From a virus, in IMG/VR virus record IMGVR_UViG_3300010300_004690, positions 1 to 28,317 of that record: a stretch of 28,317 nt of DNA; one strand, 5' to 3'. Each line of letters starts with the position of its first letter. Within the stretch, counting starts at the first letter, position 1. Positions 3,412-26,326 of this stretch are shown one piece after another. The notes beneath the pieces were generated by a model. The model saw only the letters and a program-made list of their open reading frames with translations, made no database searches and was not told where the DNA came from. A program made the position numbers and the translations under genes.

Positions 3412-3730
3412 ATGTATCTTTTACCTTCTGCTCTCGTTGAGCTTCGAAGTGCTTATGTATTTTGTCCGGTGATTCGTTTCCAAGCTCTATCATACCACGT
3501 CTTTTTGCTTCCTTCGATGCCTGAACGGGTGTGAGGGGTTTGCCGAAAGCCGGATTGTAATCAAGTTGGTTCCAATCCTTTTCACCTGAGAAGTTTACCC
3601 GTCCTATGCGACGCTCTGTACGCGTCGTCTGGCATTTGGGGCATGACTCAGGGTCGTTCATTGCAGCCACCTGCTTTACGACTTCAAACCTATGGCCGCA
3701 ATCGATGCAAGCATATGGGTAGTACGGCAT
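3398..3730 (-). CDS. FmdB-like zinc-ribbon protein
   Basis: This 110-residue protein begins with a zinc ribbon: Cys8-x2-Cys11 and Cys30-x2-Cys33, with the 'PYACIDCGHRFE' and 'CPKCQ' knuckles typical of FmdB-type putative regulatory zinc ribbons. The remaining 70 residues are charged and hydrophilic, with a predicted helix at the C terminus. The start ATG shares TAATG with the terminase stop, and the gene end overlaps the portal start. It is therefore translated together with the packaging machinery. The function is unknown; a nucleic-acid or portal/terminase accessory role is a guess from its position. Confidence 0.75.
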   Translation of the reverse strand: MPYYPYACIDCGHRFEVVKQVAAMNDPESCPKCQTTRTERRIGRVNFSGEKDWNQLDYNPAFGKPLTPVQASKEAKRRGMIELGNESPDKIHKHFEAQREQKVKDTYAKL

Positions 3731-6048
3731 TACCAGTCTTGCTCCTCTTCCACGTCTGCTAGAAGTAGATTATCAAAATAATGAAGTTTTAAATTCTTAT
3801 CGGTTTGACCAGGGACACTTGGATCTTTTTTAATTCCAAATTTGGTATTTTTCAACCACTTGCATACGTAGCGGGCTGCGTCCATCGCGTGATCATGCTG
3901 TTTGACGGGCAAACGTTCCTTCTTATCCTGATCGGGCTTTACGTCGTCAATCGTCGGATAATGGTAAATCGCTATTTCGTCAAGAAAGTGCTTAGCCCTA
4001 TTCCTCAAGACTTTGAACTTGCCGGTAGTGATCATCTCGTACATGGCATCCACGCCCGAACGGATATCATTGTCAGCTGGTATGGCAGTCAGCCCCGCCT
4101 TGTTTAACTCCAAAATATTCGCAGGGCTCGAAGGGTCACAAAGGAAACGCTCGACGCCATAAGTATCGCGAGCCATCCGGCAAGCCGCAACCACATCTGC
4201 GATTGTCTTACCTGACTTGTACCACTCGGAGACAAGGAAACAGCCCCACTTTGGGCAAACGGCAAAAATCAAAATCACGCCTGGATTTGTAAAACCCCAG
4301 TCCACGCCTGCAATGTAATAGGGACGAGCCTCTTGGTGGATGTCTGCAACCACGTGTGCGTCTTCGTCAAAGCAGTCGTATACCAATCCCTCAAGCTTAT
4401 GGAATTCACCGCCAAACATCATGTTGAATCTGCGCGGGTCCATCGTCGCACGCTTGCGCTCGTACTCGGCTTGCGGAAAGTAAGGGTTCTCATCAGACCT
4501 GGCTTGAATGATATCAACGTCAGGCAGTTCGCCCATTTTCTGCCACGGTCTTATGTAGTCGGTATATACCCAATTGAGGGAATAAGGCGAGCTTGTATAG
4601 CAAATAGGGGATTCTTTAAACGCTGCGCGTGCTTGAAGGTTCTCATGAAAGTAAAGTGGGAATAAGCCTGCCTCGTCGCCCCAAATTGAACGGCAATTTG
4701 TAATACCAACTACGCTATTCGGATCGGTAGCCGTGCGCATGAAGCATTTGCCACCACCGTGCATTTCAAATACAGCTTCAGCTTTGTTGTATGTTCCAAC
4801 ACCTTCCATAATTTCTAGGAACGCTGGTAACGTCGCTTGTTGCATCGTTTTGTAGGTTGGGGCTGCGATAATGAACGAATCTGACTTGTCGGTAAAGGTA
4901 TGCATAGCAATTTTCGTACGCCACGCACCGACGCGAGTGTTATGGGTCACTGTTTGGTTTTCGCCCACAAAACTACTTGTTGGGCTTTCCACTTCAAAAC
5001 AAATTGTTTCCTTTTTTCCTGTGCTTTCAATACCATACAAAACTTTGTTTTCTGTATTTTCATGCACAAAATAGTTTTGTGCCTTTCTTGATAAATAGAA
5101 TGGATTATATTTTTTTAAAATAATCGATACTCGATACGCTAGCCGACATCGTGTTTTCTTGTCTGTTATCCAAGCTTTGCCGGATAAGCTTTCCACCAGA
5201 TATTGAACGTCCGAAGCCAATTGCTTTGAAGTCGAATAAAATTCAATATATTTGTTTCTCTTCACCGTTCCGTCGGTATCTAACAAACCTCTAAGAAGAT
5301 CAAGCCTTTGAGTGATTGAGCCGTATTTGTAAATATCAGGTACGTGCTTTTCAGGCGATTTTTTTCCGTACAATTGTAAACGCTTTAATTCCGATGTTAT
5401 CCTTGAATAACCGTATCCGTTGCTATCCCGCTTGGGTATAGACTCTTTTATTATCCAGCCGTACGGATCGCCTTTTTTCTTGGTTATCGATATCCCTTCG
5501 GGCAATTCCCTGCTTATGCGCTCCACGATTTCAATATCTGCCAAGGTTATTTCGCTGCTTTTGGTTATACTGCCATCGCCTAACAGGCAACCAATGATAT
5601 AAGGCGATATCAAATATTGTTTCGTCGGCATTTCCACAGCGTTAGAAATGCTCGGTAGTTGAGCTTTGCCTAAATAATGAGGCTTCAAAAGAATGTCAGT
5701 AGTTGATTCTACCCTTTCCGCCCTATCGCTGCGCGGCTTGATTATATGTAAATGCTGGTCATCGCATTCAAAGGTGCGACCATCTCTAAAGATAAGCTTA
5801 TAAGTGGGACGCAAGCCTTGAGGATAAACCCCTACCACCTTTGTGGGTTTGCCGTTCCGGTCTATTAACCAATCGCTAGTTTTGATGCTACCTGCCTCGC
5901 GATAACCGTCGGGTGTTAGAACCTTTGCGCTAACAGGTACGCCTTTCCCAAATTGAATGCCACAGGCAAGTATAACCATAGGCTTTTTGGAAAATAGAAC
6001 TTTCTCTTGTTTTTGAGAGTGAGGTCTAAAGCGTAATGGTTTCGCCAC
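3730..6048 (-). CDS. terL: Terminase large subunit precursor with intein
   Basis: This 772-residue precursor encodes the DNA-packaging ATPase/nuclease, interrupted by an intein at residues 36-370. Removing the intein leaves a 437-residue terminase and restores the Walker A element as C-G-I-Q-F-G-K-T. Walker B is 'SIWGDEAG' (D458, E459). The RNase H-like nuclease domain shows 'GVDWG' (D583), 'CDPSS' (D638) and 'HDHAMDAARY' (D719, D723). The start ATG lies inside the end of the upstream neuB-like gene (23-base overlap). The stop overlaps the zinc-ribbon start. Packaging cannot work unless the intein splices, because it splits the ATP-binding loop. Confidence 0.95.
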   Translation of the reverse strand: MAKPLRFRPHSQKQEKVLFSKKPMVILACGIQFGKGVPVSAKVLTPDGYREAGSIKTSDWLIDRNGKPTKVVGVYPQGLRPTYKLIFRDGRTFECDDQHLHIIKPRSDRAERVESTTDILLKPHYLGKAQLPSISNAVEMPTKQYLISPYIIGCLLGDGSITKSSEITLADIEIVERISRELPEGISITKKKGDPYGWIIKESIPKRDSNGYGYSRITSELKRLQLYGKKSPEKHVPDIYKYGSITQRLDLLRGLLDTDGTVKRNKYIEFYSTSKQLASDVQYLVESLSGKAWITDKKTRCRLAYRVSIILKKYNPFYLSRKAQNYFVHENTENKVLYGIESTGKKETICFEVESPTSSFVGENQTVTHNTRVGAWRTKIAMHTFTDKSDSFIIAAPTYKTMQQATLPAFLEIMEGVGTYNKAEAVFEMHGGGKCFMRTATDPNSVVGITNCRSIWGDEAGLFPLYFHENLQARAAFKESPICYTSSPYSLNWVYTDYIRPWQKMGELPDVDIIQARSDENPYFPQAEYERKRATMDPRRFNMMFGGEFHKLEGLVYDCFDEDAHVVADIHQEARPYYIAGVDWGFTNPGVILIFAVCPKWGCFLVSEWYKSGKTIADVVAACRMARDTYGVERFLCDPSSPANILELNKAGLTAIPADNDIRSGVDAMYEMITTGKFKVLRNRAKHFLDEIAIYHYPTIDDVKPDQDKKERLPVKQHDHAMDAARYVCKWLKNTKFGIKKDPSVPGQTDKNLKLHYFDNLLLADVEEEQDW
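4939..5943 (-). mobile_element. Intein with LAGLIDADG homing endonuclease, inserted in TerL Walker A
   Basis: These 335 codons encode an in-frame intein. The C-terminal junction reads T-H-N followed by Thr as the +1 extein residue. The N-terminal residue is Gly rather than Cys or Ser, followed by a typical block A ending 'KVLTPDGY'. Block F reads 'TICFEVESP', with Cys at the F:4 position, and a Thr precedes the penultimate His. These are two of the three features of class 3 (WCT) inteins; the block B Trp position is His ('DDQHLH'). Two LAGLIDADG motifs, 'YIIGCLLGDGS' (D158 of the precursor) and 'LLRGLLDTDG' (D259), indicate a homing endonuclease that spreads the element to intein-free terL genes. 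The insertion lies exactly between Lys and Thr of the Walker A loop. Confidence 0.93.
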
Positions 6049-6943
6049 GCACGTATTCCCTTTGCGCAGTTTTGCCGTAAACTTGCTCGATCGCGTTCAT
6101 ATAGTTCTCGCAGTCGGAAGTGCCGCGAAAAAAACCGATGTTTTGTAAGTCAAAGTCTTCGCCTGCTTTGATATCCTTGATTGCAACCACGCGCCTATTA
6201 TGCCTAAGCCTCATCTCATGCTCACCGGCTTTCAACAAATTCGATGGCATCCGGTTTTTCAAGTCCTCACATAAGAAAGCAAACTCGGCTGGCCCTACCG
6301 AATGGGGGCTGTCAGGATGGCCTTGAATACCAAGAAAGTTGACATGCTTTTCAACCACAGGGAAGTTAAATATATCATGCGCAAGCGTTAGCTCGCCCAC
6401 GCCTTTTGTGTGGTCTGAGATGCCCACCCTGTCTTTTACCAAAAGCTCTAAGTCTCGCACTGCTTTTAGATCGATGTCAGTGCTAGGGTATTCCGAATCG
6501 CAATAAAGAAAAGTTGCACGCACCCACGTTGCCACGGCTCTGACTTCGTTTAGAGTATGCCCGCCCGTTGATATGAATAGAGGCTTTTCGGTGGCTGCAT
6601 GAATCCTGCTAGCTACTTTGAGTAGCGACTTATGCTCCATGTCAGAGCTTGCGATTTTGATAAAATCAAGGTGTTTTTCGTGTCGTAATAGTTGCTCGTG
6701 GTCGAAAAACGTCACTCCGAAATCTATCTCTAATTCCTTGGCACGCTTCGATAGATCGTAAATCCAAAAGGGACTGATTGAATAATTTTTAAACGTTGGG
6801 ATATGCCTACCGTAGAGCGACCACGAGTCAAAGCATTGAAACTTGACCGCATCCGCTCCACTTGCTTTTGCGTGATAGATCGATTCTAAGCAGTCGGCTT
6901 TTGTTTTAAAACAACTACCAATCTCGGCTATGATATACGTCAC
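6026..6943 (-). CDS. neuB: NeuB-like N-acetylneuraminate (nonulosonic acid) synthase
   Basis: Members of this family condense phosphoenolpyruvate with an N-acetylated hexosamine to make a nine-carbon sialic acid-like sugar. The 305 residues give a TIM barrel followed by a C-terminal SAF (antifreeze-like) domain from about residue 247 ('RRVVAIKDIKAGEDF'). Family motifs visible are 'AEIGS' at the N terminus, 'GADAVKFQ' (29-36), 'SDHTKG' with His178, 'VEKHVNF' with His200, and 'HSVGP'; the two His match the metal ligands of NeuB. It is slightly shorter than the usual 335-350 residues. It lies between the terminase subunit genes, with its start 4 bases inside terS and its end 23 bases inside terL. 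The exact substrate (ManNAc-, legionaminate- or pseudaminate-type) cannot be read from the sequence. Confidence 0.88.
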   Translation of the reverse strand: MTYIIAEIGSCFKTKADCLESIYHAKASGADAVKFQCFDSWSLYGRHIPTFKNYSISPFWIYDLSKRAKELEIDFGVTFFDHEQLLRHEKHLDFIKIASSDMEHKSLLKVASRIHAATEKPLFISTGGHTLNEVRAVATWVRATFLYCDSEYPSTDIDLKAVRDLELLVKDRVGISDHTKGVGELTLAHDIFNFPVVEKHVNFLGIQGHPDSPHSVGPAEFAFLCEDLKNRMPSNLLKAGEHEMRLRHNRRVVAIKDIKAGEDFDLQNIGFFRGTSDCENYMNAIEQVYGKTAQREYVRGETITL

Positions 6944-7938: not shown

Positions 7939-8253
7939 ATGTTTATTTCTATGAAGCTATACGCTTACAGCCCTAACGAAGCAACGGACGATAACGGCAA
8001 CCCAATAGGGTGGTACAAGCCGCAAGTCCATGAGCTTTATCTTAAATTGCAGGATATTCTTGCTATTGAGTATGTGGAAGATCTGCCCATGTTTTTTAAT
8101 GCCGAACTTGACTGGCGCGGCCTAAATCTTTATCTCGTCACTGTAAAAGATGAACTCGTCAACAGCGTACCTCGCATAAACGATCAAAGTTTTTACGCTC
8201 AATTAGATGAAGACACCGAGTCATTTTTACTTAATCAATCAAGATGCCCCTAA
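7939..8253 (+). CDS. Hypothetical protein downstream of ssb
   Basis: This is a 104-residue acidic protein of unknown function. The start chosen is the ATG at 7939, preceded by TAGGAGG, a near-perfect ribosome site overlapping the ssb stop codon, so it is translated with ssb. A longer opening that begins inside ssb has no such site. The sequence has mixed alpha/beta composition with several Tyr and Trp and no recognisable motif. Its end overlaps the end of the convergent ERCC4 nuclease gene by 15 bases. Position suggests a replication or recombination accessory role. Confidence 0.65.
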   Translation: MFISMKLYAYSPNEATDDNGNPIGWYKPQVHELYLKLQDILAIEYVEDLPMFFNAELDWRGLNLYLVTVKDELVNSVPRINDQSFYAQLDEDTESFLLNQSRCP

Positions 8254-8712
8254 ATATTTTAATTCTCGCAATCTTCGGTTTGCAACCACCCAGAGCATTC
8301 GAGATACCATTGTCGCTGCTTGTGGGTGGCTTTCTGCGAATATGATCGGCAAACCGTCAGCCATCCATCCCATGATGCTACCAATTGCAGAATTTGGATG
8401 CACGTTGGATTTGTAATTGCCCTGCACGATATCACACCACCGACACTCAACCACCAGTGCGCGAGTTTGATACGCCTTGAGCCTTTGCAGTTCTCGTTCA
8501 AACCTTTCGCGCTCACGCCCAAAGCACTGCCCAAGGTCATCGAGGCTTTTGCGTTCGATGGCAACCAAATGCTCTAGCCCCTCGATTGAGTAGTCGCCAG
8601 TCGGTAGCCCTTTCCTCACTGTCGGAATTTCGATGTCACCCGCTTTCAACTTCAGTGGCTTTTGCTCGCGTGTATCGATCACCGCCCGCCACGTCACTGC
8701 ATCTTTTTTCAT
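8239..8712 (-). CDS. ERCC4/XPF-type nuclease
   Basis: This 157-residue protein consists of a single ERCC4 nuclease domain. It carries the family signature G-D-x(n)-E-R-K-x3-D: 'DTREQKP' at residues 13-19, 'GDYS' at 39-42 and 'IERKSLDD' at 52-59. Such domains cut branched or flapped DNA, fitting a role in phage recombination or replication-intermediate processing. The ATG at 8712 is the best start. A longer reading from a TTG at 8763 would add 17 Lys/Arg/Gly residues, encoded partly by a run of eleven G. The gene converges on the ssb operon and lies downstream of helicase and primase on the same strand. Confidence 0.88.
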   Translation of the reverse strand: MKKDAVTWRAVIDTREQKPLKLKAGDIEIPTVRKGLPTGDYSIEGLEHLVAIERKSLDDLGQCFGRERERFERELQRLKAYQTRALVVECRWCDIVQGNYKSNVHPNSAIGSIMGWMADGLPIIFAESHPQAATMVSRMLWVVANRRLRELKYLGAS

Positions 8713-9064
8713 CACCCCCCCCCCCTTTCCTTTTCGCTGCCGCTTTGCCTCTTTTTTAAGCAATCCGCTGGGGCGGATTGTGCAACCACCTTGGGGTGAC
8801 TGCTACTTGTAACTCTGGTGGTACCACCTAACAAATTGGTATCATTGACGTAATCGCGTTTTTGACGGTAACCAAACATGCTTAAAAAAACTTTTCTACT
8901 TTTCCTATATATAGCCCTATATATATATATATATATATATATTCTTATATATAACTATTTTTAAGGAAAGGATGGTTACCTGGGTACATAGGATTTTCCC
9001 TTCGTCATTTCAAGGGGATAGGGGAAACCGCGAACATGGGTACCCACGGTCCCCTCAGGTTACA
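8713..9064. other. Non-coding AT-rich spacer between ERCC4 and helicase genes
   Basis: I see no credible gene in this stretch of about 350 bases. It holds a perfect 8-base-pair hairpin with a four-base loop at 8761-8780 (CAATCCGC / GCGGATTG), a 12-base perfect palindrome GGTGGTACCACC at 8817-8828, a run of alternating TA around 8917-8942 flanked by two shorter TATATATA blocks, and a 10-base palindrome TGGGTACCCA at 9037-9046. The hairpin is not followed by a U-tract in the direction of the genes, so it is not a typical terminator. The mixture of easily melted AT repeats and palindromes next to helicase, primase and SSB genes would suit a replication origin or control region, but this is inference. 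Confidence 0.5.
8715..8725 (-). repeat. G11 homopolymer tract directly before the ERCC4 start
   Basis: The minus strand has eleven consecutive G ending 2 bases before the ATG at 8712, with an AAGGA-like site further upstream. The tract may act as ribosome site or spacer, and its length should be prone to slippage. Confidence 0.9.
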
Positions 9065-11866: not shown

Positions 11867-12122
11867 AAAAAAAATCAAAAAAGACTCTCACTTTATGCTG
11901 CGCCTTGACAAGTTTCGCCTGCTAGTTCTCAAACAGCTAGCAGAGCGGGAAGGCGTGACGGCAAGTGAGTTAGTCAGACGGTGCATCGACAAACAAATTA
12001 TAGAAGAAGGCAAAAGCCAATATGAAAACATCAAACGAGATAGGAAACCTCGCGAAGTCCCTAGTCGCAGCCCAAAGCCAGATGAGTCAGGCGTTAAAGG
12101 CAGCATCGAACCCATACTTTAA
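11856..12122 (+). CDS. Ribbon-helix-helix DNA-binding protein
   Basis: This 88-residue protein has a core 'SHFMLRLDKFRLLVLKQLAEREGVTASELVRRCIDKQI' that fits an Arc/CopG-type ribbon-helix-helix: one strand and two helices. The start is GTG at 11856, preceded by TTGGAG, overlapping the previous gene by 11 bases. An in-frame ATG at 11893 would remove part of the strand and is less likely. The hydrophilic tail, rich in Lys, Arg and Pro, is encoded by the 101 bases that overlap the ERF gene in another frame. A repressor or DNA-organising role is likely. Confidence 0.72.
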   Translation: MVARKKIKKDSHFMLRLDKFRLLVLKQLAEREGVTASELVRRCIDKQIIEEGKSQYENIKRDRKPREVPSRSPKPDESGVKGSIEPIL

Positions 12123-12579
12123 AGCAAAATATGCAACGTTCGAATCTCTTATCGAGGCATCTCGCCCCGCGCTGGTTGCAAACGGGCTAGCCGTATCTCA
12201 AGGTTCCGATTTTATCGATGGGCGGGTGGTTGTTACAACTATGCTCATCCACGCATCGGGCGAGTGGTTGCAAACATCTGTAAGCCTACGCCCCGTAAAA
12301 GACGATCCGCAAGCAGTAGGTTCTGCAATAACCTATGGTAGGCGGTACGGATACCAAGCAATCGTTGGCCTTGCGCAAGCAGATCATGATGACGATGGCA
12401 ATCACGCAAGTGGTAAAAGCGAAGAACTAAGACGAGAAGCTTTTAAAAACGCAGCGAGGAAAGCAGGCGTTAAATCTCTAGCCGACATGAAAGCTATGTA
12501 CATGGATGCAGTCAAAGTAGGTTTTAAAGAAAGTGAATACCCACAGTTTATTAAAGACTACCTGGAGCATAAAAAATGA
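12022..12579 (+). CDS. erf: ERF-family single-strand annealing recombinase
   Basis: This 185-residue protein belongs to the ERF family, which anneals complementary single strands and can circularise phage DNA by recombination between terminal repeats. The core 'SNPYFKAKYATFESLIEASRPALVANGLAVSQ' (about 28-60), 'TMLIHASGEWLQTSVSLRP' and 'AITYGRRYGYQAIVGLA' are hallmark segments, and 'DHDDDGN' closes the core. It works with SSB encoded nearby. The gene starts inside the ribbon-helix-helix gene (101-base overlap), and its stop TGA overlaps the next ATG. The ATG at 12022 starts the conserved N terminus and is preferred. Confidence 0.92.
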   Translation: MKTSNEIGNLAKSLVAAQSQMSQALKAASNPYFKAKYATFESLIEASRPALVANGLAVSQGSDFIDGRVVVTTMLIHASGEWLQTSVSLRPVKDDPQAVGSAITYGRRYGYQAIVGLAQADHDDDGNHASGKSEELRREAFKNAARKAGVKSLADMKAMYMDAVKVGFKESEYPQFIKDYLEHKK

Positions 12580-13091
12580 CTGACGTAATAAAGAAACTAA
12601 GCGATGCAGCTTACGAATTATCTCAACTATGCGCTAAGATCGACGATCACGACGGCGTGGAAATTGACCAGGCTTTGATTGATGATTTCCAAAACGCGCT
12701 CGGTGACGTCACAAAAGCAGTCGATCGTAGGAAGTTATTTATACAGACGATTGACGCCCGCATAGCCCTAGCAAAAGATTACAGGGATCGTGGGGCGCAA
12801 GCAGTCAAAAGCTTAGAAAATTTGAGACGTAGGACGGTGGATGCAACCAAGTTTGTAGTCGCAAACAACCCCAACATCCCGTTCAGAGACGCCCTTGGCA
12901 AGCAACTTAAAGTCATTCCAAATCAGCCAAAGCTTGTCATAACGAGTCACGGCTGGCATGGCACTGAGTTTGAGCTTACAGTCGAAGAAAAGGTGGTTGA
13001 TAAAGAAGCTTTGAAAAAGGCTTTGCTTGAAGGCAAAAAGTTTGAGTTTGCGACGTTAGAGACAGGCACCCAGCTTAGAGGACTGAAATAA
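12576..13091 (+). CDS. Gp157-like phage recombination-operon protein
   Basis: This 171-residue protein has a long N-terminal helical, coiled-coil-like part (about 1-95) and a C-terminal beta-rich part ending 'FEFATLETGTQLRGLK'. The arrangement and its position directly after a single-strand annealing protein match the Siphovirus Gp157 family, whose members have been linked to phage defence and nuclease inhibition without a firm mechanism. It is coupled to erf by ATGA overlap and is the last gene of the operon, followed within 10 bases by a hairpin terminator. The family call is from pattern and context. Confidence 0.65.
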   Translation: MTDVIKKLSDAAYELSQLCAKIDDHDGVEIDQALIDDFQNALGDVTKAVDRRKLFIQTIDARIALAKDYRDRGAQAVKSLENLRRRTVDATKFVVANNPNIPFRDALGKQLKVIPNQPKLVITSHGWHGTEFELTVEEKVVDKEALKKALLEGKKFEFATLETGTQLRGLK

Positions 13092-13644: not shown

Positions 13645-14355
13645 TCAATCAAACGAGAAATCAGCTGGTAGCCTGATAAAGCCTTGCACTGTAGTTAGAT
13701 AACGGTAAACTATTGCGGTTTTGTCGCGATAATTTCCTTCGTAACAAACAAGTGCAGTACCATCCTTCTTGGCAAAAAACCCTATGTGATCTTCCCAATC
13801 GTTATCTGGATTCGTAGGATTTGACCAGTCAAAAAGCACGATATCGCCTGGTTTCGGCTCAACACCCGCCACATTCGGCAAGTAGTAATTCTTTTCGATC
13901 GCCCATTGCTGCCACGCCTCAACTAACGCGCTGGTATAACCGAATTTAGACGGCATATTCAAAGGCACTTCAACGCCTGCTTCCTCTAAACACCACGTTA
14001 CAAACGCCGCGCACCATGGAAATCGTCCTTTGCCAAAAACAGGTTCAAATTTTTTCGTATACTTTCTAGCGCCTGAGTCATCCCGCCAGCCATAATTTCC
14101 CGCTGCTTCGCGCCCTGCTATCTCTAACAACTTTTCGTGAAAGCTTTGCGTGGTAGCAATTTCAGGGATTTCCTTGCCAGCCGGTGCAACTAAAAACGTG
14201 AAGTAATCAGGGTTTCTCGCGTACTGATCGACCAAATCTTTAAAATCTGCAAAGTCCTTCGTTTTTTCTTTTAAGACGGGCTTATAGCCATCGTAGAATA
14301 CGATGACTGGTTGCCCGTCTTCATCTCTGAATAGTTCAGCCCACGTTGCCTGCAT
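13645..14355 (-). CDS. CHAP-domain peptidoglycan hydrolase
   Basis: This 236-residue protein has a CHAP amidase/endopeptidase domain. The catalytic Cys lies in 'RFPWCAAFVTWCLEEAG', and the His lies in 'NDWEDHIGFF', preceded by 'PKPGDIVLFDW'. The first 75 residues form a separate N-terminal region of unknown role. CHAP enzymes cut peptide bonds in peptidoglycan, so this is half of the lysis machinery. The gene ends in TGA and the next codons continue in frame into a GH108 domain. The ATG at 14355 is preceded by GAGG in a duplicated 15-base unit shared with the end of the upstream gene. Confidence 0.85.
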   Translation of the reverse strand: MQATWAELFRDEDGQPVIVFYDGYKPVLKEKTKDFADFKDLVDQYARNPDYFTFLVAPAGKEIPEIATTQSFHEKLLEIAGREAAGNYGWRDDSGARKYTKKFEPVFGKGRFPWCAAFVTWCLEEAGVEVPLNMPSKFGYTSALVEAWQQWAIEKNYYLPNVAGVEPKPGDIVLFDWSNPTNPDNDWEDHIGFFAKKDGTALVCYEGNYRDKTAIVYRYLTTVQGFIRLPADFSFD

Positions 14356-17181: not shown

Positions 17182-17406
17182 TCATTGCTCTAATTCCGCC
17201 AGGGTCGCATCGTCATTGATGGTCGGATCTATCTTATCACGAAGGATATACTCACCGGTAGGCGTGGAAATCAATTTTGTGGCAGGTTTAGGGCTATGTC
17301 TTACCTGCTCGTATTTAATTGGAGACTTGCGAAAAATTTTAAAAAGCAGGACAGTCTGACAAAATAAAATAACTATTATCATCAAACCGAAAGATATGTA
17401 TATCAA
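17182..17406 (-). CDS. Small single-pass membrane protein
   Basis: This 74-residue protein has an N-terminal transmembrane segment ('ISFGLMIIVILFCQTVLLFKIF') and a hydrophilic tail rich in Lys, Thr and Asp. It overlaps the end of the acetyltransferase gene by 4 bases, so it is translated with the sugar cassette and closes it. A second small membrane protein opens the cassette at 21713. No family is recognised; a role in exporting or attaching the sugar is only a guess from position. Confidence 0.6.
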   Translation of the reverse strand: MIYISFGLMIIVILFCQTVLLFKIFRKSPIKYEQVRHSPKPATKLISTPTGEYILRDKIDPTINDDATLAELEQ

Positions 17407-17921
17407 TAGAGTATCTCGTATGATTTTAACGAATAGAGTTTACAATCTATCCACCGACCGTTTTTGAAATAGAAATCACGTCTGACACCGTCGAGCTTCA
17501 TGCCGAGGCTTACAAATAAATCACTCGCGGGGTTGTCCTGAAAAGTTTCGCCCCAAATTTGATGCAGATGCAATTCGTCAAAGCCGTACTTGAATAAAGT
17601 CTTCAAAGCCTTGCGGCACAAGCCTTTTAGTCTCACATGTTGCGCAATCCAGCAAGAAAATTCTGCCCTTTGATGCAAGTGGTTGATATCAGTAAGCCCA
17701 CAAACACCCACAGGGTTCGAAGCATTATCGATGATCTCAAACATCAGGATATTTGGGTCCTCCCTTTGCTCGTGATACCACTGCGCCTGATCCATCTCAT
17801 CAATCAGTTTGTATTGCCTGCACCACCTCATGCACTGCATGTCGTTGCGCTCTAAACGATAAAACTCAAGGTTTTCTTGTTTCAAAGGTCCAAGCTTGAC
17901 GCCGAATCCGTAATCAATCAC
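17403..17921 (-). CDS. GNAT-family N-acetyltransferase (PseH/RimJ-like)
   Basis: This 172-residue protein has the GNAT fold: an N-terminal strand-helix, 'NPVGVCGLTDIN' (beta strand pair, 69-80), the acetyl-CoA loop 'RLKGLCRKALKTLF' (97-110), where the usual Gly/Ala is Cys, and 'QDNPASDLFVSLGMK' (128-142). Relatives include PseH, which acetylates the amino group of UDP-4-amino sugars in pseudaminic acid synthesis, and the ribosomal-protein acetyltransferases. The surrounding sugar genes favour an amino-sugar substrate. Its start overlaps the preceding small gene by 8 bases. Confidence 0.85.
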   Translation of the reverse strand: MIDYGFGVKLGPLKQENLEFYRLERNDMQCMRWCRQYKLIDEMDQAQWYHEQREDPNILMFEIIDNASNPVGVCGLTDINHLHQRAEFSCWIAQHVRLKGLCRKALKTLFKYGFDELHLHQIWGETFQDNPASDLFVSLGMKLDGVRRDFYFKNGRWIDCKLYSLKSYEILY

Positions 17922-18171
17922 TTTTTTTGCTCGATTCTTGGTAGAAGACTTTCAAAGAGATCTTGTAAACATCAAGCGCGTTCATAGCTTTGTTTGGCTC
18001 GAAGCCTGTCAGTTCCTGGAAGTTTTTAACAAACTTTTGGCTATGTGAAGCCGCATCTTGCGCCGCCTTATCAACGTAATCAATAGCCTCAGCCAAACTG
18101 TCAATCTTTATTGTCGCTGGTTTTTCTTTTACCTCTTCGCTTGGAATCTCCACCACTGGTTGCTCGCTCAT
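17914..18171 (-). CDS. Small hypothetical protein in the sugar cassette
   Basis: This 85-residue acidic protein is predicted to be helical ('DSLAEAIDYVDKAAQDAASHSQKFVKNF'). The ATG at 18171 lies inside the 3' end of the aminotransferase gene (71-base overlap), with AGGAAAAG-like purines upstream, and its end overlaps the acetyltransferase start by 8 bases. No family or motif is recognised. Tight overlap on both sides argues that it is expressed. It could be an accessory subunit of either neighbour. Confidence 0.55.
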   Translation of the reverse strand: MSEQPVVEIPSEEVKEKPATIKIDSLAEAIDYVDKAAQDAASHSQKFVKNFQELTGFEPNKAMNALDVYKISLKVFYQESSKKSD

Positions 18172-19303
18172 TTTTCTTTTCCTCTCTTATTTTCGCAGCC
18201 CACGGAAGCATGGGCTTATCATATTCAAGGTTGACCTTATTATCAGCTATATTCTTTTGAATTTGCTCGATGGCAAGCCACACCGTAGGTTCTTCCTTGG
18301 GGTTTTCAAAACCATAAAACCATGACTTGCAAAAAAGAAGGTAACACCTAGCGGCTTCTTGCATGAATATATAGACATCGTCGGGATTTTTAGAAGTAAG
18401 CACGCCCCTTGTCGGATATCCTTCAATCTGAATAGGTCCAAGGCTATTGAAGTGATCGATAAACCGTTGACCCTTTATCCACAGTTCATCCACAGAGTAT
18501 TGCGGGTTTTTCACAAGTAGTTCACAGACTCTTTTGCATACCGCAAGGCTACCAGCTTCACCGGCATACGTGGATGAAACAAAGTAGGCCATATCGTCCA
18601 TGATTTCCTTTTTACCACCGATGGCGGATAGGGGCATTCCATTTGCCATAGCCTTCCCTAATATTATCAGATCAGGCGTGACATTTGACCAACGTGCAAC
18701 GGAATGTTTTTTAAAACGAAAACCTGTAATGACTTCATCGAATATAAGTAACGCGCCCGCTTTCTTGCAGGCGCTATAGAGCTTGTTGAGGTAGTGAATC
18801 CTCTCTTTTGAGTAATCTGTGATAACAGGCTCAACGATGACAGCAGCCACTTCTTTACTTATCTGCTCAAGGCTTTCAAGTTTTTGCGACCACGCATAGC
18901 CTTCAGGTATACCGCAAGCCGGTGGATGCAAATGCATAAACTCATCAGACCAGCCGTGGTAGCCATCTGTCAAAATCAGGTTTCGCCCCGTAGCATTACG
19001 GGCAATCTTGACAGCGCCCATACACGCCTCGGTGCCGGTTTTTAGGAATTTAAAACGATCGACAAAGCAAAAGATTTCTTTTAAGGCTTCGGCTGCCTCT
19101 ATCTCGAATATAGTAGGGAGGCTATGGGAAAAACCTTGCCTGACCCCCTGAGACAACGCCCCAAAAACTGGTTGATTGTCGTAGCCAAACAGTGCTGCTC
19201 CCAAGCCGCCCATGTAATCTATATAAGCTAGCCCACGTTCGTCAAATAGTTTTGCGCCCTGGCCTCCAGTTACATGGGAAGGGTAGCAACCATCGATAAG
19301 CAT
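18101..19303 (-). CDS. Class III (glutamate-1-semialdehyde aminomutase-like) aminotransferase
   Basis: This 400-residue PLP enzyme resembles glutamate-1-semialdehyde 2,1-aminomutase. The phosphate-binding 'KTGTEACMGAVKIAR' (88-102), 'GYHGW' (114-118), 'IFDEVITGFR' with Asp189, and 'ILGKAMANGMP' with the PLP Lys217 are all intact. Relatives occur in bacterial surface-sugar clusters together with SpsF-like and NeuB-like enzymes. It may aminate a keto-sugar, though classical PseC/LegC aminotransferases belong to another PLP family. The C-terminal tail ('NERATSGGDSKRRGKRK') is strongly basic and mostly encoded where the gene overlaps the next small gene. The ATG at 19303 lacks a clear ribosome site. 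Confidence 0.85.
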   Translation of the reverse strand: MLIDGCYPSHVTGGQGAKLFDERGLAYIDYMGGLGAALFGYDNQPVFGALSQGVRQGFSHSLPTIFEIEAAEALKEIFCFVDRFKFLKTGTEACMGAVKIARNATGRNLILTDGYHGWSDEFMHLHPPACGIPEGYAWSQKLESLEQISKEVAAVIVEPVITDYSKERIHYLNKLYSACKKAGALLIFDEVITGFRFKKHSVARWSNVTPDLIILGKAMANGMPLSAIGGKKEIMDDMAYFVSSTYAGEAGSLAVCKRVCELLVKNPQYSVDELWIKGQRFIDHFNSLGPIQIEGYPTRGVLTSKNPDDVYIFMQEAARCYLLFCKSWFYGFENPKEEPTVWLAIEQIQKNIADNKVNLEYDKPMLPWAAKIREEKKNERATSGGDSKRRGKRKTSDNKD

Positions 19304-19362
19304 TTTAGGGTTTTTGGAATTAGTTAAAGCCCCTTGAGCTATGCAGTTTCCAGCCCTTTGTC

Positions 19363-20070
19363 TTAAAGTCTGAATACCCCGTCCCCTTTCTCTTTTGCAA
19401 TCTTGAGCTTTCGTTGCAAAACATCGTCATACATATTGGTAAACTCTAAATCTTTTTGCGTATCAACAGAGATTTTCAGGCTCGAATTGTCGAGGTATCC
19501 GACTACGTGCGCTATCCTTGCCCATGCTGGTTTTGTCTTTTGCAGTAGGCTTGTGACATGCTCCCGATGCAAAGGCGTGGTTGCATTTTCCATAAGCCAA
19601 CAAAGCATCTTGCGGCTCATCACTTCGCAGTCCCAGCCGTCAGGATGCGTCCTCGTTTCAATGTCCACGTTCGAGCAATAGTCGTATTTGTAATTTGCGC
19701 AGGAAACAATATGCTTTGTTATTAAAAACGGTGGTATCAAAGGACAGTCGCCCGTTACTCTGCATATGTAATCGTAATCAGGGTTTTCAGCCACAAGCTT
19801 ACCGTATCTGGAAAGCACGTCCATCTCATCACCTTCAACCACCCTTGCCAGTGGTTGATATTGCAAAGCCAGTGGGTCGCCGGTAGGTGTTAGCAGATAA
19901 ACATCCACTTCGATATCGCTACCACGCCTATTTGTTATGTAACTCGCAGCATTGAGGCAAGCTTTCAAAGCCTTGCCCACCACCGATTCTCCGCCAATAA
20001 ACATGGACGATTTACCTGGTAGCCTGGTGCTTGTGGACCTAGCCTGGACTCCTATGGCAACCTTAATCAA
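19363..20070 (-). CDS. SpsF/NeuA-like cytidylyltransferase
   Basis: This 235-residue nucleotidyltransferase is of the CTP_transf_3 type, expected to activate a nonulosonic acid (or related acidic sugar) as CMP-sugar. Visible motifs are 'VQARSTSTRLPGKS' (8-21), the nucleotide-binding signature, 'GDEMDVLSRY', 'ICRVTGDCPLI' with the metal-binding Asp, and 'ISVDTQKDLE' near the C terminus. The length and motif pattern are closer to SpsF (spore-coat polysaccharide type) than to canonical NeuA. It overlaps the oxidoreductase gene by 8 bases, and a 59-base gap separates it from the aminotransferase. Confidence 0.87.
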   Translation of the reverse strand: MIKVAIGVQARSTSTRLPGKSSMFIGGESVVGKALKACLNAASYITNRRGSDIEVDVYLLTPTGDPLALQYQPLARVVEGDEMDVLSRYGKLVAENPDYDYICRVTGDCPLIPPFLITKHIVSCANYKYDYCSNVDIETRTHPDGWDCEVMSRKMLCWLMENATTPLHREHVTSLLQKTKPAWARIAHVVGYLDNSSLKISVDTQKDLEFTNMYDDVLQRKLKIAKEKGDGVFRL

Positions 20071-20641
20071 TTTCGTACCATCCCTCGATCACTCGCTTGT
20101 GAGCTTCGATAGCGTACTTCCCATTGCCTTCAGGCTCGGCAAGCCACGCTTTCACTTCGTCCATATAAGCCTTGTCCATATAGCGGAAATTCACGTTGAT
20201 GCCGTTTATCCTGCATTTCCAAATAGGGCTTTTGTTGCTTAGTTTGGGTTTTTTGGAAGCAAGCCCGATAATGTTTACGCAGTCCCATGCCAGCCCATCG
20301 CTACCACTTTTAAAATAGCTGTAGGTTGTTGGCCCTACCATGTCAAAAGATAGGTGACGGTATTGGTTGAGCATGGTTAGTTTTTTATATTTAAAGGCGT
20401 TTTTTACTTCGCTTAGGTCTTTTGAAATAGGTTTTTCACAAAGGATAGGCTTTCTTGTTTTTTTGTAAAACTCGATAGCCTCGCAATGCTTGTCAGTCGG
20501 GCTTGTTATCATGTATCGATCAAAACGCTTCGCCTGGTCCCAGTCATCCACGTCAAAACATTGATGCTCGATCTTGTAGAAGGTAAGGATAGACGAATAC
20601 CGCTTGCCCATATTGCCGTTGCCGATAATTGCTACTTTCAT
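20063..20641 (-). CDS. Short Gfo/Idh/MocA-like oxidoreductase
   Basis: This 192-residue protein has a Rossmann start 'MKVAIIGNGNMGKRY' and the family's 'ILCEKPIS' (Glu69-Lys70-Pro71), where Lys is the conserved catalytic residue. Normal members are 320-400 residues; here most of the C-terminal substrate domain is missing, although the end 'AIEAHKRVIEGWYE' resembles a normal C terminus. It may be a compact family version or an internally deleted gene. Overlaps with both neighbours (4 bases with the PseB-like gene, 8 with the cytidylyltransferase) show it is part of the operon. A redox step on the sugar nucleotide is the likely role. Confidence 0.78.
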   Translation of the reverse strand: MKVAIIGNGNMGKRYSSILTFYKIEHQCFDVDDWDQAKRFDRYMITSPTDKHCEAIEFYKKTRKPILCEKPISKDLSEVKNAFKYKKLTMLNQYRHLSFDMVGPTTYSYFKSGSDGLAWDCVNIIGLASKKPKLSNKSPIWKCRINGINVNFRYMDKAYMDEVKAWLAEPEGNGKYAIEAHKRVIEGWYEID

Positions 20642-21486
20642 TTTAAAACCCTCGCAACCAACGTCTCTAGTTGACTTGAATTAAATCGCTCTATCGATAC
20701 CGAACTGATGGCTCGGTCATTTTCAGGATCGTATGAAATTTCCTCATGCAACTTTTCACCTGGTCGGAAACCAATGACTTCATATTCTGGCTCTGTTGCG
20801 CCTTCGTATTCAGCTACCGCATCGCCCAAAGCCTCGGTGGTTGCCGCCTTCATTTCAGGGATAACAAGGGGTTTGATGGTATTTCGTTCATCCCAAATCA
20901 GATTTGCTATATCGTCAATATGCACCCAAAAACGGGTCATGTCATAGTGAGTAAGTTTAGGCTTTTCGCCTTTTAAAATCGCATCCCTAAACTTATGCAA
21001 AACGCTTCCACGGCTACCAAGGACGTTCCCATACAGAAACGTGGTTGCATCGTCTTTATCCTGCAAATACTTTTGCCCCAAGGCTTTTGCCATGCCGTAA
21101 GCATTGATCGGACGCACTGCCTTGTCGGTGCTTGTAAAAAGATACTTAGCACCTGCAAACCTAGAGTATTTGTAGGTATTGACCACACCCTCATAGTTCA
21201 CCTTGACGGCATATTCTACGTTTGCCTCGCATACCTCAACGTGCTTACTTGCAGCGAGGTTGATAACGTAATCCGCCCTGCGTGGTAGCTTGTCCCACCA
21301 GTCGGTATTGCTTACGTCACCTAAAATATATTTATGACAGCCGAATTTTTTTTCGTGGTCTTTTTGCCTAAGCTCGCAACGGCTTACGATATAAACGTTG
21401 CATATGTTAGGCCACGTTTTATCTCTGATAACTTCCGTTAAGGCATGGCCAAGGCTACCAGTCCCTCCGAATATAACTACGTTCAT
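20638..21486 (-). CDS. PseB-like UDP-GlcNAc 4,6-dehydratase
   Basis: This 282-residue extended SDR enzyme is likely to convert UDP-GlcNAc to a 4-keto-6-deoxy sugar, the first step of pseudaminic or legionaminic-type synthesis. It shows the NAD loop 'GGTGSLG' (7-13), 'NLAASKHV', the catalytic 'TSTDKAVRPINAYGMAK' with Asp121, Lys122, Tyr130 and Lys134, and the PseB/CapD-type 'FRPGEKLHEE' (240-249). It is shorter than PseB (about 330). It starts inside the end of the small membrane protein gene and shares 4 bases with the oxidoreductase gene. Retaining versus inverting stereochemistry at C5 cannot be decided by eye. Confidence 0.88.
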   Translation of the reverse strand: MNVVIFGGTGSLGHALTEVIRDKTWPNICNVYIVSRCELRQKDHEKKFGCHKYILGDVSNTDWWDKLPRRADYVINLAASKHVEVCEANVEYAVKVNYEGVVNTYKYSRFAGAKYLFTSTDKAVRPINAYGMAKALGQKYLQDKDDATTFLYGNVLGSRGSVLHKFRDAILKGEKPKLTHYDMTRFWVHIDDIANLIWDERNTIKPLVIPEMKAATTEALGDAVAEYEGATEPEYEVIGFRPGEKLHEEISYDPENDRAISSVSIERFNSSQLETLVARVLK

Positions 21487-21740: not shown

Positions 21741-22952
21741 CTACGCAGATTCTAGCGCATCCAGTCTGGCTTTTAAAGAGTCGATTTGCGCTTGCTGCTC
21801 TTGGATTGCCTTGGTTAGCACAGGGATAATTCTAATGTACTCCATAGCCAACTTATCCGCTGGACTATTTTCGTCATTTTTGTCTATTAAGTCACCAGTG
21901 CTATACACAGATTCAGGGATAATAGGTTGAGTCGTTTGCGCTCCAAAACCTATATCCGTTTTACCAAACATTTCATATTTTATAGGTTTTAATTTTAAGA
22001 CTTCTTTTAAACCGTAAGGTATTGGTTCAATATTAAATTTTAATCTTTCGTCAGATGTTTGGCTTCCTACAACGGTACCAGAGCTTGTTCCAACGTTAGA
22101 GCTGTTATTTGTGATCATTAATCGATCGATGCCATCCACATATATCCAGTCGTTACCAGCATCAATAGCGCGCAAATAAATATAAGCAGATTCATTAAAA
22201 CCGGATTTATTTATACACCCAAAAGTGCCAATAGTACCGACGGCAGTAGTCCCCAGCTTAAATGATTCTATAGATTGATTATTTGCTATGGTAGCCCCAT
22301 AAGCATAAAACCCAGTTTCACCAACAGCAGGTTTGGTTTGTAAACTTATAGAAGATGATTGAACAGCACCACCAATCCCCACATTCCCGTCTGTGTCAAC
22401 AGTTATAACCGTATTAGCGTTAGTAATATCTTCAAGCTTCCATTTTTGTGAATCGGAAGTATCACAATAGGCATTCCATTGTTGAGTAGGTGAGGCCGCA
22501 GTGCCTCCGACTGTCCATCTAGCAATAGCGTCACCGGCTGTTGTGTGTATTTGAAAACCGCCATTATCTTCGGTTAAAAGCCTGCCCGTGGTTACAGTGA
22601 CGGCCTCATTAAATGTTGTGGTGCCGTCAACGGTAATCGTATCACCTGAAGCATCGCCTATATTCACATCGCCATTAAAAGTTGCCGCACCATTGAAAGT
22701 CGTAGTACTTGAAAACGTGGTAGCCGCTACAAAAGTAGGCGTGGCATTCACGGTCAAAGTATCACCAGCCGCATTGCCTAACGTCACGTTACCGTTTGCC
22801 GTAAGCGTGGATGTTAGAGTTAGGGTGTTAAAACTCAGATCACCCGTCCCGTCGGAGATCGCATTTAAAATATCTTGGAAGTTTGTATTCACGTCCGGTG
22901 CCGATGCCACACTTCCATTAGAGAAGCTGTAAGTAACTGAAGGTATTGCCAT
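21741..22952 (-). CDS. Tail fibre/spike with S74 endosialidase-type chaperone domain
   Basis: This 403-residue protein has a short N-terminal attachment region and then beta-repeat segments: 'GNVTLGNAAGDTLTV' (54-68) and 'GDVNIGDASGDTITV' (94-108) are 40 residues apart. The C-terminal 105 residues form a peptidase S74 intramolecular chaperone: 'QTSDERLKFNI' with the Ser300-Asp301 dyad, 'VLKLKPIKYEM', 'GFGAQ', then a coiled coil 'LTKAIQEQQAQIDSLKARLDALE'. Such domains trimerise the fibre and then cut themselves off before the Ser. The fibre is the likely receptor-binding protein. No enzyme domain is seen in it. It lies directly upstream of the sugar cassette and downstream of the ejection genes. 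Confidence 0.88.
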   Translation of the reverse strand: MAIPSVTYSFSNGSVASAPDVNTNFQDILNAISDGTGDLSFNTLTLTSTLTANGNVTLGNAAGDTLTVNATPTFVAATTFSSTTTFNGAATFNGDVNIGDASGDTITVDGTTTFNEAVTVTTGRLLTEDNGGFQIHTTAGDAIARWTVGGTAASPTQQWNAYCDTSDSQKWKLEDITNANTVITVDTDGNVGIGGAVQSSSISLQTKPAVGETGFYAYGATIANNQSIESFKLGTTAVGTIGTFGCINKSGFNESAYIYLRAIDAGNDWIYVDGIDRLMITNNSSNVGTSSGTVVGSQTSDERLKFNIEPIPYGLKEVLKLKPIKYEMFGKTDIGFGAQTTQPIIPESVYSTGDLIDKNDENSPADKLAMEYIRIIPVLTKAIQEQQAQIDSLKARLDALESA

Positions 22953-25055: not shown

Positions 25056-26027
25056 TTATTCACCTAAGAATTTATTTATGACCGACTCTTTATCTTGTGG
25101 CCTTTGCGGTGGTTGCCCTATAGCCGTGGGCACTAGGTCAAACATGCTAGCTGGTTGCTCGGATAACATCTCTTGCCTTTGTTTTTGAAGACTTTCCATA
25201 AATTCAGAAAACCTTTCATCTAAAACATCATCGACATCCACGCCTGCCTTAGTAGCAAGCTGCCGGAATCTATCATCAGTAAAACGCTGCAATTCCATTT
25301 GACCTGCCGCTATTTCCCTGGCTTCTTTATAAAAGTTTTCTCTCTGCTCTGGAGTAAGTCTCTCGCCCGTTAGAATTTTATTATAAAAGTTCCTAACTTG
25401 AGCAGGTATCCCGCCACTATTTTCGGCTGTCGCAACTTCACCTTCACGGACTGTAGACGGGGGATCGATGGTTTTCATAAAAGCGAATACCATTGAAATA
25501 TCGGTCGCCCCTGAAGGGTTAGGATTTCTGTAGGCAGATTCTACTTTTTTGTAGTTTCTTAAAACACCCACAGAATTATCAGAAAGCTTTGTATATTCTT
25601 TTCGAAGATCGGACGTTGCTTTTGATATTCGTTTTTGTTCGTCGCTAGCTAGTTTCGTTGCAAGCCGTTGTTCTTCTCTGCTTTGAGGCGTCAAGGCAAA
25701 AAGCGGCTTTTGATCTGGTGTCATACCAAAACTGATTGCCCCTCGCGTCCCTTCAGGCACAAACTGGATACCTTGCCTAGTCAATTGCGTTTGTTGGTAC
25801 GGTGAAGTAAAACCCTTCTCAGCCATCTCGCGTTCCCTAGCCTCAAACTCACCCTTGGCAATTTGTTGCTCTGCAAGTTTTGATTGCTCGGCACGTTGCG
25901 CAGCCAGCGCGTCGGATTTTTCCATCGCGCCTTTGATGTTGTAAATACCACCGGCAATCTGTAAGCCTTTGAGTATCGTGTCAAGGCTATCCCTACGGTT
26001 GTATCCTGGTAGTTGTACGGTTGCCAT
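25056..26027 (-). CDS. Internal virion/ejection-type protein
   Basis: This 323-residue protein is mostly helical. A recognisable block 'MVFAFMKTIDPPSTVREGE' then 'ENSGGIPAQVRNFYNKILTGERLTPEQR' (about 180-240) occurs, as I recall, in many internal virion proteins of marine and environmental podovirus-like phages. The N-terminal half is a charged coiled coil. It is coupled to the upstream gene by TAATG. DNA ejection or internal-head assembly is the likely role. Confidence 0.7.
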   Translation of the reverse strand: MATVQLPGYNRRDSLDTILKGLQIAGGIYNIKGAMEKSDALAAQRAEQSKLAEQQIAKGEFEAREREMAEKGFTSPYQQTQLTRQGIQFVPEGTRGAISFGMTPDQKPLFALTPQSREEQRLATKLASDEQKRISKATSDLRKEYTKLSDNSVGVLRNYKKVESAYRNPNPSGATDISMVFAFMKTIDPPSTVREGEVATAENSGGIPAQVRNFYNKILTGERLTPEQRENFYKEAREIAAGQMELQRFTDDRFRQLATKAGVDVDDVLDERFSEFMESLQKQRQEMLSEQPASMFDLVPTAIGQPPQRPQDKESVINKFLGE

Positions 26028-26326
26028 TACGCAAGCCCTTCTTGTCTTCTAGCTTGTAGCAAAGCAGCCACAAGTGGTGGTTCGTATTGTTTCCGTTGCG
26101 CATCGGGTAACTGTGAAGCCTCAAACCTAGCCGCTTCCAATGCAGCCACGTTATCAGCTGGAGCCATCATTTGCGCTGGTTGCGGTGTAGGGGCTGGGAC
26201 CGTTGGTTGTGCACCGAGTCGCCTTTGGGCGGCTGAACTTCTAACCGGTTGAACCGGAGGTTTTTGCCCACCAAACAGGTTCGTAGCTAGACTCGCTGCT
26301 GCTATTAAAGTTGTTGGCTCTGGCAT
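26027..26326 (-). CDS. Small Pro/Ala/Gln-rich virion-operon protein
   Basis: This 99-residue protein starts with a hydrophobic 'TLIAAASLATNLFGG', has a Pro/Gln-rich middle, and ends in a charged helix. It lies between two ejection-type genes, coupled by TAATG to the next and 17 bases after the previous. No family is recognised. Similar short proteins with an N-terminal hydrophobic helix are often found in ejection modules. Confidence 0.55.
   Translation of the reverse strand: MPEPTTLIAAASLATNLFGGQKPPVQPVRSSAAQRRLGAQPTVPAPTPQPAQMMAPADNVAALEAARFEASQLPDAQRKQYEPPLVAALLQARRQEGLA

Follow-up and report, generated by a model that had tools for sequence, protein, structure and literature searches.

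The 28,317-base virus record IMGVR_UViG_3300010300_004690 of IMG/VR, which in its entirety constitutes the window analysed here and is a fragment with both ends lying inside genes, carries a tight minus-strand cluster of five enzyme genes (positions 17403-21486) straight after a tail-fibre gene (Table 1). An initial annotation had proposed that this cluster is a cassette for a nonulosonic acid (NulO)-like sugar, comprising a PseB-like dehydratase, a Gfo/Idh-like oxidoreductase, an SpsF/NeuA-like cytidylyltransferase, a class III aminotransferase and a GNAT acetyltransferase, and that a NeuB-like synthase is encoded elsewhere in the window. The five enzymes are indeed all present, with Pfam and NCBIfam support, and the synthase was likewise recovered as a member of PF03102.

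Table 1. Genes and other features of the window (positions in nucleotides from the first base)
Feature	Position	Strand	Support
Major head (coat) protein gene, cut by contig end	1..411	-	L242 93% identical here
Large terminase	3730-6048		
NeuB-type nonulosonic acid synthase, 305 aa, between terminase genes	6026..6943	-	PF03102 2e-27
ERCC4-domain nuclease	8239-8763		
ERF recombinase with Gp157-like protein	12022-13091		
CHAP-domain endolysin	13645-14355		
GNAT N-acetyltransferase, PseH-like, 172 aa	17403..17921	-	PF13302 6e-16
Small conserved protein, 85 aa, between aminotransferase and GNAT	17914..18171	-	Homologue at same place in L002, L007
Class III pyridoxal phosphate (PLP) aminotransferase	18101..19375 (conventional open reading frame 18101-19303)	-	PF00202 (Aminotran_3) 4e-36
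SpsF-type cytidylyltransferase, predicted CMP-sugar synthetase, 235 aa	19363..20070	-	PF02348 (CTP_transf_3) 3e-10
Short Gfo/Idh/MocA oxidoreductase, 192 aa	20063..20641	-	PF01408 (GFO_IDH_MocA) 4e-7
PseB/FlaA1-type UDP-N-acetylhexosamine 4,6-dehydratase, 282 aa	20638..21486	-	PF02719 (Polysacc_synt_2) 3e-48
Small open reading frame between fibre and dehydratase, 80 aa	21483..21725	-	Homologues at same place in L002, L007
Tail fibre (S74 peptidase chaperone domain), immediately upstream of cassette	21741..22952	-	PF13884 1e-7, tail-fibre PHROGs
Tail-region gene, cut by other contig end	27090..28316	-	65% identical to residues 230-637 of full L002 gene

Each enzyme falls into its expected Pfam family, yet scores under the specific NCBIfam equivalog cut-offs. 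The top NCBIfam family of the dehydratase is PseB (133 bits, under its cut-off of 408) and that of the acetyltransferase is PseH (4e-16, 59.5 bits; cut-off 93.1), so that, as judged from these scores, the enzymes are distant homologues and not textbook pseudaminic acid (Pse) enzymes. The dehydratase motif T120-D121-K122...K134 is invariant in all 26 phage homologues, 25 of which carry Tyr130, as in PseB, instead of the Met of PglF and SpsM. The cytidylyltransferase, for which 29 phage open reading frames (ORFs) were matched, has 6oew Cytidylyltransferase as its best PDB match (4e-18, with a three-phage profile), and the PLP-binding Lys and the Asp of the aminotransferase are kept in 27 of 27 intact phage copies. 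The EKP motif and Asp120 of the short oxidoreductase are invariant in 17 homologues, and its predicted fold, with a predicted local distance difference test (pLDDT) score of 95, matches those of Gfo/Idh enzymes, among them GnnA, WlbA, KanD2 and GenD2. These oxidoreductases are paired with aminotransferases and, by analogy, the short phage enzyme may create a ketone for amination.

The cassette genes are closely packed, with overlaps of 4 bp between dehydratase and oxidoreductase and of 8 bp between oxidoreductase and cytidylyltransferase. Translation of the aminotransferase probably begins at an ATT codon at position 19375 and not at the ATG at 19303, because the 24 extra codons are homologous to those of relatives; an AAGGGG resembling a Shine-Dalgarno sequence lies upstream of this ATT, and the relatives carry an ATG at the homologous place. 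A -1 frameshift fusing the cytidylyltransferase and the aminotransferase was considered and rejected, as no slippery site was seen and the ATT start fits better. An identity of the aminotransferase as HemL, a glutamate-1-semialdehyde aminomutase (GSAM), was ruled out by its scores (177.6 bits against the HemL equivalog, below the cut-off of 527) and by gene neighbourhoods. The 85-residue protein encoded within the cassette had no Pfam or PHROG match.

The synthase gene adjoins that of the large terminase subunit (TerL) in relatives as well, and adjoins terminase in both L002 and L007. The phage NeuB proteins are divergent; the catalytic Lys (in KIAS) and both metal-binding His residues (in SDH and EKH) are shared by all 29 phage homologues. 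The neighbouring large terminase of the window contains an insertion of about 335 residues at its Walker A motif (GIQFGK/GVPVSAK...VTHN/T, with slashes at the junctions), which carries a LAGLIDADG_3 domain and is an intein, its first residue being Gly where Cys, Ser or Ala is usual; the TerL proteins of G001 and G002 are without this insertion.

The cassette and NeuB were found again in about 30 divergent viral contigs, mostly in the same order and place. The relatives are metagenomic contigs gathered by scans that rely on exact seeds; the contig set was picked via two of the followed genes, and a large set was obtained from scans with alignments of the portal protein, the cytidylyltransferase and a transferase encoded among the head genes, which is described below. 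Mapping of 32 contigs with hidden Markov models found the complete set in most of them, and NeuB turned up in 37 of 47 contigs when families were searched on whole contigs. Scans with NeuB or the aminotransferase as single proteins, for which exact-pattern seeding is weak, gave no matches among viral contigs. In L002 and L007, viral contigs with 40-58% protein identity, the gene order is identical to that of the window (fibre, small ORF, dehydratase, oxidoreductase, cytidylyltransferase, aminotransferase, small ORF, GNAT). The exact succession of the five enzymes is found in 19 of the 28 contigs having the cytidylyltransferase, and in all 28 a single strand carries the cassette genes; such synteny in distant phages rules out chance clustering.

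The genes are also inherited together. When contigs of at least 30 kb were picked by the transferase alone (n = 15), NeuB, the cytidylyltransferase and GNAT were each present in 14 and all eight followed genes in 12, and each of the seven contigs picked by the cytidylyltransferase alone contained both the transferase and NeuB. Pairwise identities of the genes average 35-52%, gene distances track portal distances (Mantel r 0.54-0.76, p 0.001) and the phage aminotransferases form one monophyletic clade (support 100); this co-divergence and the single clade fit genes that are old and have been passed on vertically. G012 (35.8 kb) has none of NeuB, cytidylyltransferase, dehydratase, oxidoreductase and GNAT, and its leftover aminotransferase has the PLP-binding Lys replaced by Ala and the Asp by Asn. 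This joint loss supports the view that the genes form one pathway.

Some relatives depart from the common arrangement. A dehydratase gene lies near NeuB, outside the cassette, in G014 (25078-26049) and G042 (5033-5989), and that of G042 has the PglF/SpsM-type Met in place of Tyr, which hints at a swap for a different dehydratase. The aminotransferase gene of L002 (12131-13894) is split by an insertion of about 450 bp, with a 148-residue ORF in another frame (12501-12947) that resembles an HNH endonuclease; it is probably an intron or a homing element, and gave no Rfam intron match and no convincing Pfam match. The isolated phages of INPHARED gave six distant matches to the dehydratase and no relatives of the cytidylyltransferase, NeuB or the transferase, and neither NeuB nor the transferase has a matching family in PHROGs v4. 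The viral loci L003-L006, matched by the dehydratase only, were set aside as other viruses with different sugar clusters, in which no transferase was seen.

The initial annotation had reported that any glycosyltransferase is missing, which holds for the window but not for its relatives. Between head and tail genes, in an interval of about 5 kb (measured on G001) that the contig lacks, these encode an MptE-like protein of 337-340 residues (PF01973, 72 bits; cut-off 34.6), and the domain was found in all 23 homologues from relatives. In all 31 contigs the gene lies after the coat gene and before the tail genes, with head genes at its flanks; a protein of about 157 residues is encoded between the coat gene and the transferase in 29 of these, and the next gene after the transferase mostly encodes a protein of 89 residues. 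The two ends of the window fall within the coat gene and within a tail gene, and L242, the sequence of which is 93% identical to the coat fragment of the window, continues from the coat gene to a 161-residue protein and then to the MptE-like protein. The same continuation occurs in 16 of 16 loci that are at least 63% related and long enough, some of them near-duplicates, and is absent from three loci at 40%. As far as such neighbourhoods can tell, the phage of the window very probably has an MptE-like gene just past position 1.

The AlphaFold model of the transferase (pLDDT 92.7, predicted TM-score 0.91) has the Maf structure 5mu5 as its best PDB match (E 1.3e-10), with further matches to archaeal HPPK (8sd5, 3.5e-5) and the human sialyltransferase ST8SiaIII (9e-5); TM-scores are modest overall, reaching 0.52 to Maf, and the similarity is thus at the level of a domain. 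Maf enzymes transfer nonulosonic acids to Ser/Thr residues of flagellin and accept the cytidine monophosphate (CMP)-activated donor CMP-Neu5Ac, and their central pfam01973 domain resembles that of the sialyltransferase Cst-II (PMC11339370). The phage protein is too short for the three-domain architecture of Maf, which takes at least 600 residues. The Pfam name MptE-like, the second-ranking match to HPPK and the retention of the gene in G012 without the pathway could indicate a pterin pyrophosphokinase or some other enzyme, in which case the cassette would feed a host glycosyltransferase and the genes would not form one system. This is highly improbable, since Maf is by far the better match and human sialyltransferases match too, the gene co-occurs strongly with NeuB and the cytidylyltransferase, and no pterin gene was seen among the scanned genes.

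The initial annotation had asked whether the best relatives of these enzymes act in unrelated pathways; those of the aminotransferase and the cytidylyltransferase in bacteria were found in pse/neuB clusters, an outcome that leaves the proposal standing. Among the class III aminotransferases that Bacteroidota and Cyanobacteriota encode is a high-scoring group of about 220-296 bits with the phage profile, aligned over the full length, in which relatives from NeuB clusters reach up to 280-296 bits; ordinary GSAM enzymes score about 200 bits or less. The high-scoring enzymes are usually encoded beside NeuB and an SpsF-type gene, and often beside PseB, PseG and PseH too. A cyanobacterial locus (L236) encodes, in this order, PseB, PseC, an aldo/keto reductase, PseH-like and SpsF-like proteins, a class III aminotransferase, a PseG-like protein and PseI (507.6 bits, above its cut-off), the names PseC, reductase and PseG having been read from the sequence and not scanned. 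On a Pseudosulfitobacter plasmid (Roseobacter pse cluster), the cytidylyltransferase and aminotransferase are fused into a single protein of 677 residues, encoded between annotated pseB/pseC and pseG/pseI; no other finding speaks as strongly for a place of the phage pair in NulO metabolism.

A further type of bacterial cluster (L222-L234 and L196) combines NeuB, a class III aminotransferase, SpsF, SDR and HAD proteins, in some cases with a transketolase pair; it is common in Bacteroidota, occurs also on a Methylomagnum plasmid and resembles an uncharacterised ulosonic acid pathway. The product of the phage genes might likewise be a related keto-acid or amino sugar other than a nine-carbon NulO, for example an octulosonate, that is still CMP-activated and attached, given that SpsF and class III aminotransferases accompany NeuB-like synthases and transketolases in bacterial clusters of unknown product, that the phage NeuB is divergent and that neither PseG nor PseC was recognized. 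We regard this as quite unlikely in view of the PseB-type Tyr of nearly all the dehydratases, the closeness of the GNAT enzyme to PseH and the fact that no transketolase pair was recognized among the scanned phage genes.

The identity and conservation of the genes, with their intact catalytic residues, their co-inheritance, and the position and predicted fold of the transferase, all of which are read from sequence, make it likely that the cassette and NeuB produce a CMP-activated pseudaminic-like sugar, to be linked by the Maf-like enzyme to a protein of the virion. For the order of the enzymes we infer a route in which the dehydratase would generate a uridine diphosphate (UDP)-4-keto-6-deoxy-N-acetylhexosamine, to which the aminotransferase would add an amino group that is then acetylated by GNAT. 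After removal of UDP by a host enzyme or an unrecognized one, NeuB would condense the sugar with phosphoenolpyruvate, the SpsF-type enzyme would convert the product to a CMP-sugar and the Maf-like enzyme would move the sugar to Ser/Thr residues of a virion protein. The Gfo/Idh enzyme would probably contribute by tailoring, yielding a ketone for an extra amination. SpsM, which acts on the route to legionaminic acid (Leg), has a catalytic Met (M146); a bacterial pathway with SpsM, SpsD, SpsE and SpsF makes legionaminic acid, SpsF being part of the CMP-Leg pathway of B. subtilis (PMC7439481). Because the phage dehydratase has Tyr in 25 of 26 homologues and SpsM has Met, a pseudaminic-type configuration would be a better guess than a legionaminic one.

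Several observations weigh against this interpretation. The pathway is incomplete by known standards, because neither a hydrolase nor a PseC-type aminotransferase was recognized. The absence of a hydrolase/epimerase reported initially extends to all 32 mapped contigs, in which no PseG/NeuC-type enzyme was found (TIGR03590 and PF02350 both absent), so that UDP would have to be released by a host enzyme, by an unrecognized phage enzyme or through a different route. No PseC-type (DegT) aminotransferase was recognized, DegT not having been searched separately in every contig, and the sole aminotransferase found is the class III enzyme. In bacterial pse clusters this enzyme occurs alongside PseC and not in its place; because PseC is also present there, it may, by analogy, add an extra amino group and not perform the PseC step. 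The phage proteins fall under the equivalog cut-offs, and single enzymes are absent from contigs in which the cassette is covered, namely the oxidoreductase (G030 and G043), GNAT (G041) and the dehydratase (G047), the absence of the oxidoreductase suggesting a tailoring role. The window itself has no transferase gene, because the contig breaks there, and G012 retains the transferase without the pathway, which suggests that the enzyme is able to draw on a donor made by the host or serves some other purpose. The initial suggestion of a possibly non-standard sugar is upheld.

A virion acceptor is favoured because the transferase gene sits among head genes. The combined Ser and Thr content of the coat, 161-residue and 89-residue proteins (16-18%, against 11.8% for the long ORFs of the window) points only weakly to an acceptor, the fibre also reaching 21.5%. 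On the other hand, the sugar could modify the infected cell, through a surface glycan, the S-layer or flagellin, and block superinfection or the re-adsorption of virions, with the Maf-like enzyme acting on a host protein; Maf enzymes do modify flagellin (PMC11339370), prophages alter capsular nonulosonic acids (PMC12053666) and the cassette lies near tail-fibre and lysis genes. This is unlikely, since the transferase is always in the head operon and would be expected with the genes for late structural proteins, neither a membrane glycosyltransferase nor a flippase was recognized among the scanned genes and no sign of lysogeny was seen. Of the three functions initially offered, which were masking of the infected cell, prevention of re-adsorption and decoration of the virion, the last is now favoured by the invariable position of the transferase gene. 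The benefit of virion glycosylation would probably be the shielding or tuning of the particle surface, with shielding, adsorption tuning and host mimicry as possible forms.

The phage set resembles the PseBCHGIF and B. subtilis SpsM/C/D/G/E/F systems in its 4,6-dehydratase, aminotransferase, GNAT, NeuB-type synthase and SpsF-type cytidylyltransferase, and differs from Pse/Leg pathways in having a class III and not a DegT aminotransferase, an additional short Gfo/Idh enzyme, no PseG-type hydrolase and a NeuB set apart in the packaging module. With the Maf flagellin glycosyltransferases (5mu5; C. botulinum Maf) the transferase shares PF01973, the best structural match and an association with NulO genes, as in Clostridium drakei, where flagellin, Maf and pse genes lie together (L189); the phage enzyme, however, has 337 residues compared with 612-632 and is encoded in a phage head operon and not beside flagellin. 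Prophage genes that modify host NulO are known (PMC12053666). The O-acetyltransferases EpaA and EpaB of A. baumannii prophages are phage-encoded proteins acting on nonulosonic acids, but they alter a capsule sugar made by the host, whereas here most of the synthesis and a protein glycosyltransferase would be viral. Giant viruses and chloroviruses encode sugar synthesis and transferases for their particles; a 2022 review of giant viruses does not mention nonulosonic, sialic or pseudaminic acid (PMC9614988). Capsid glycosylation has been proposed for mycobacteriophages from their glycosyltransferase genes (PMC11256854). Our literature search, which covered few subscription papers and preprints and in which absence is not proof, found no virus, phages included, that encodes a NulO pathway of its own together with a transferase.

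We see about equal reason to accept and to doubt the broader proposal that a widespread podovirus-like lineage has, as a core trait, its own NulO metabolism and sialylates its capsid by means of a dedicated single-domain Maf-like transferase, perhaps with a new amino-nonulosonic acid that the class III aminotransferase and the Gfo/Idh enzyme would make as a pair. The synthesis and transfer of nonulosonic acids are usually associated with the surfaces and flagella of bacteria, and these phages would be, as far as the literature found extends, the first known viruses to possess both. The retention of seven genes in small genomes (33-40 kb) across a large divergence implies a strong benefit. If correct, the interpretation would also provide a simple Maf-like enzyme of one domain with which proteins could be sialylated, and a way to approach through genetics the unexplained pair of class III aminotransferase and SpsF in bacterial NulO clusters.

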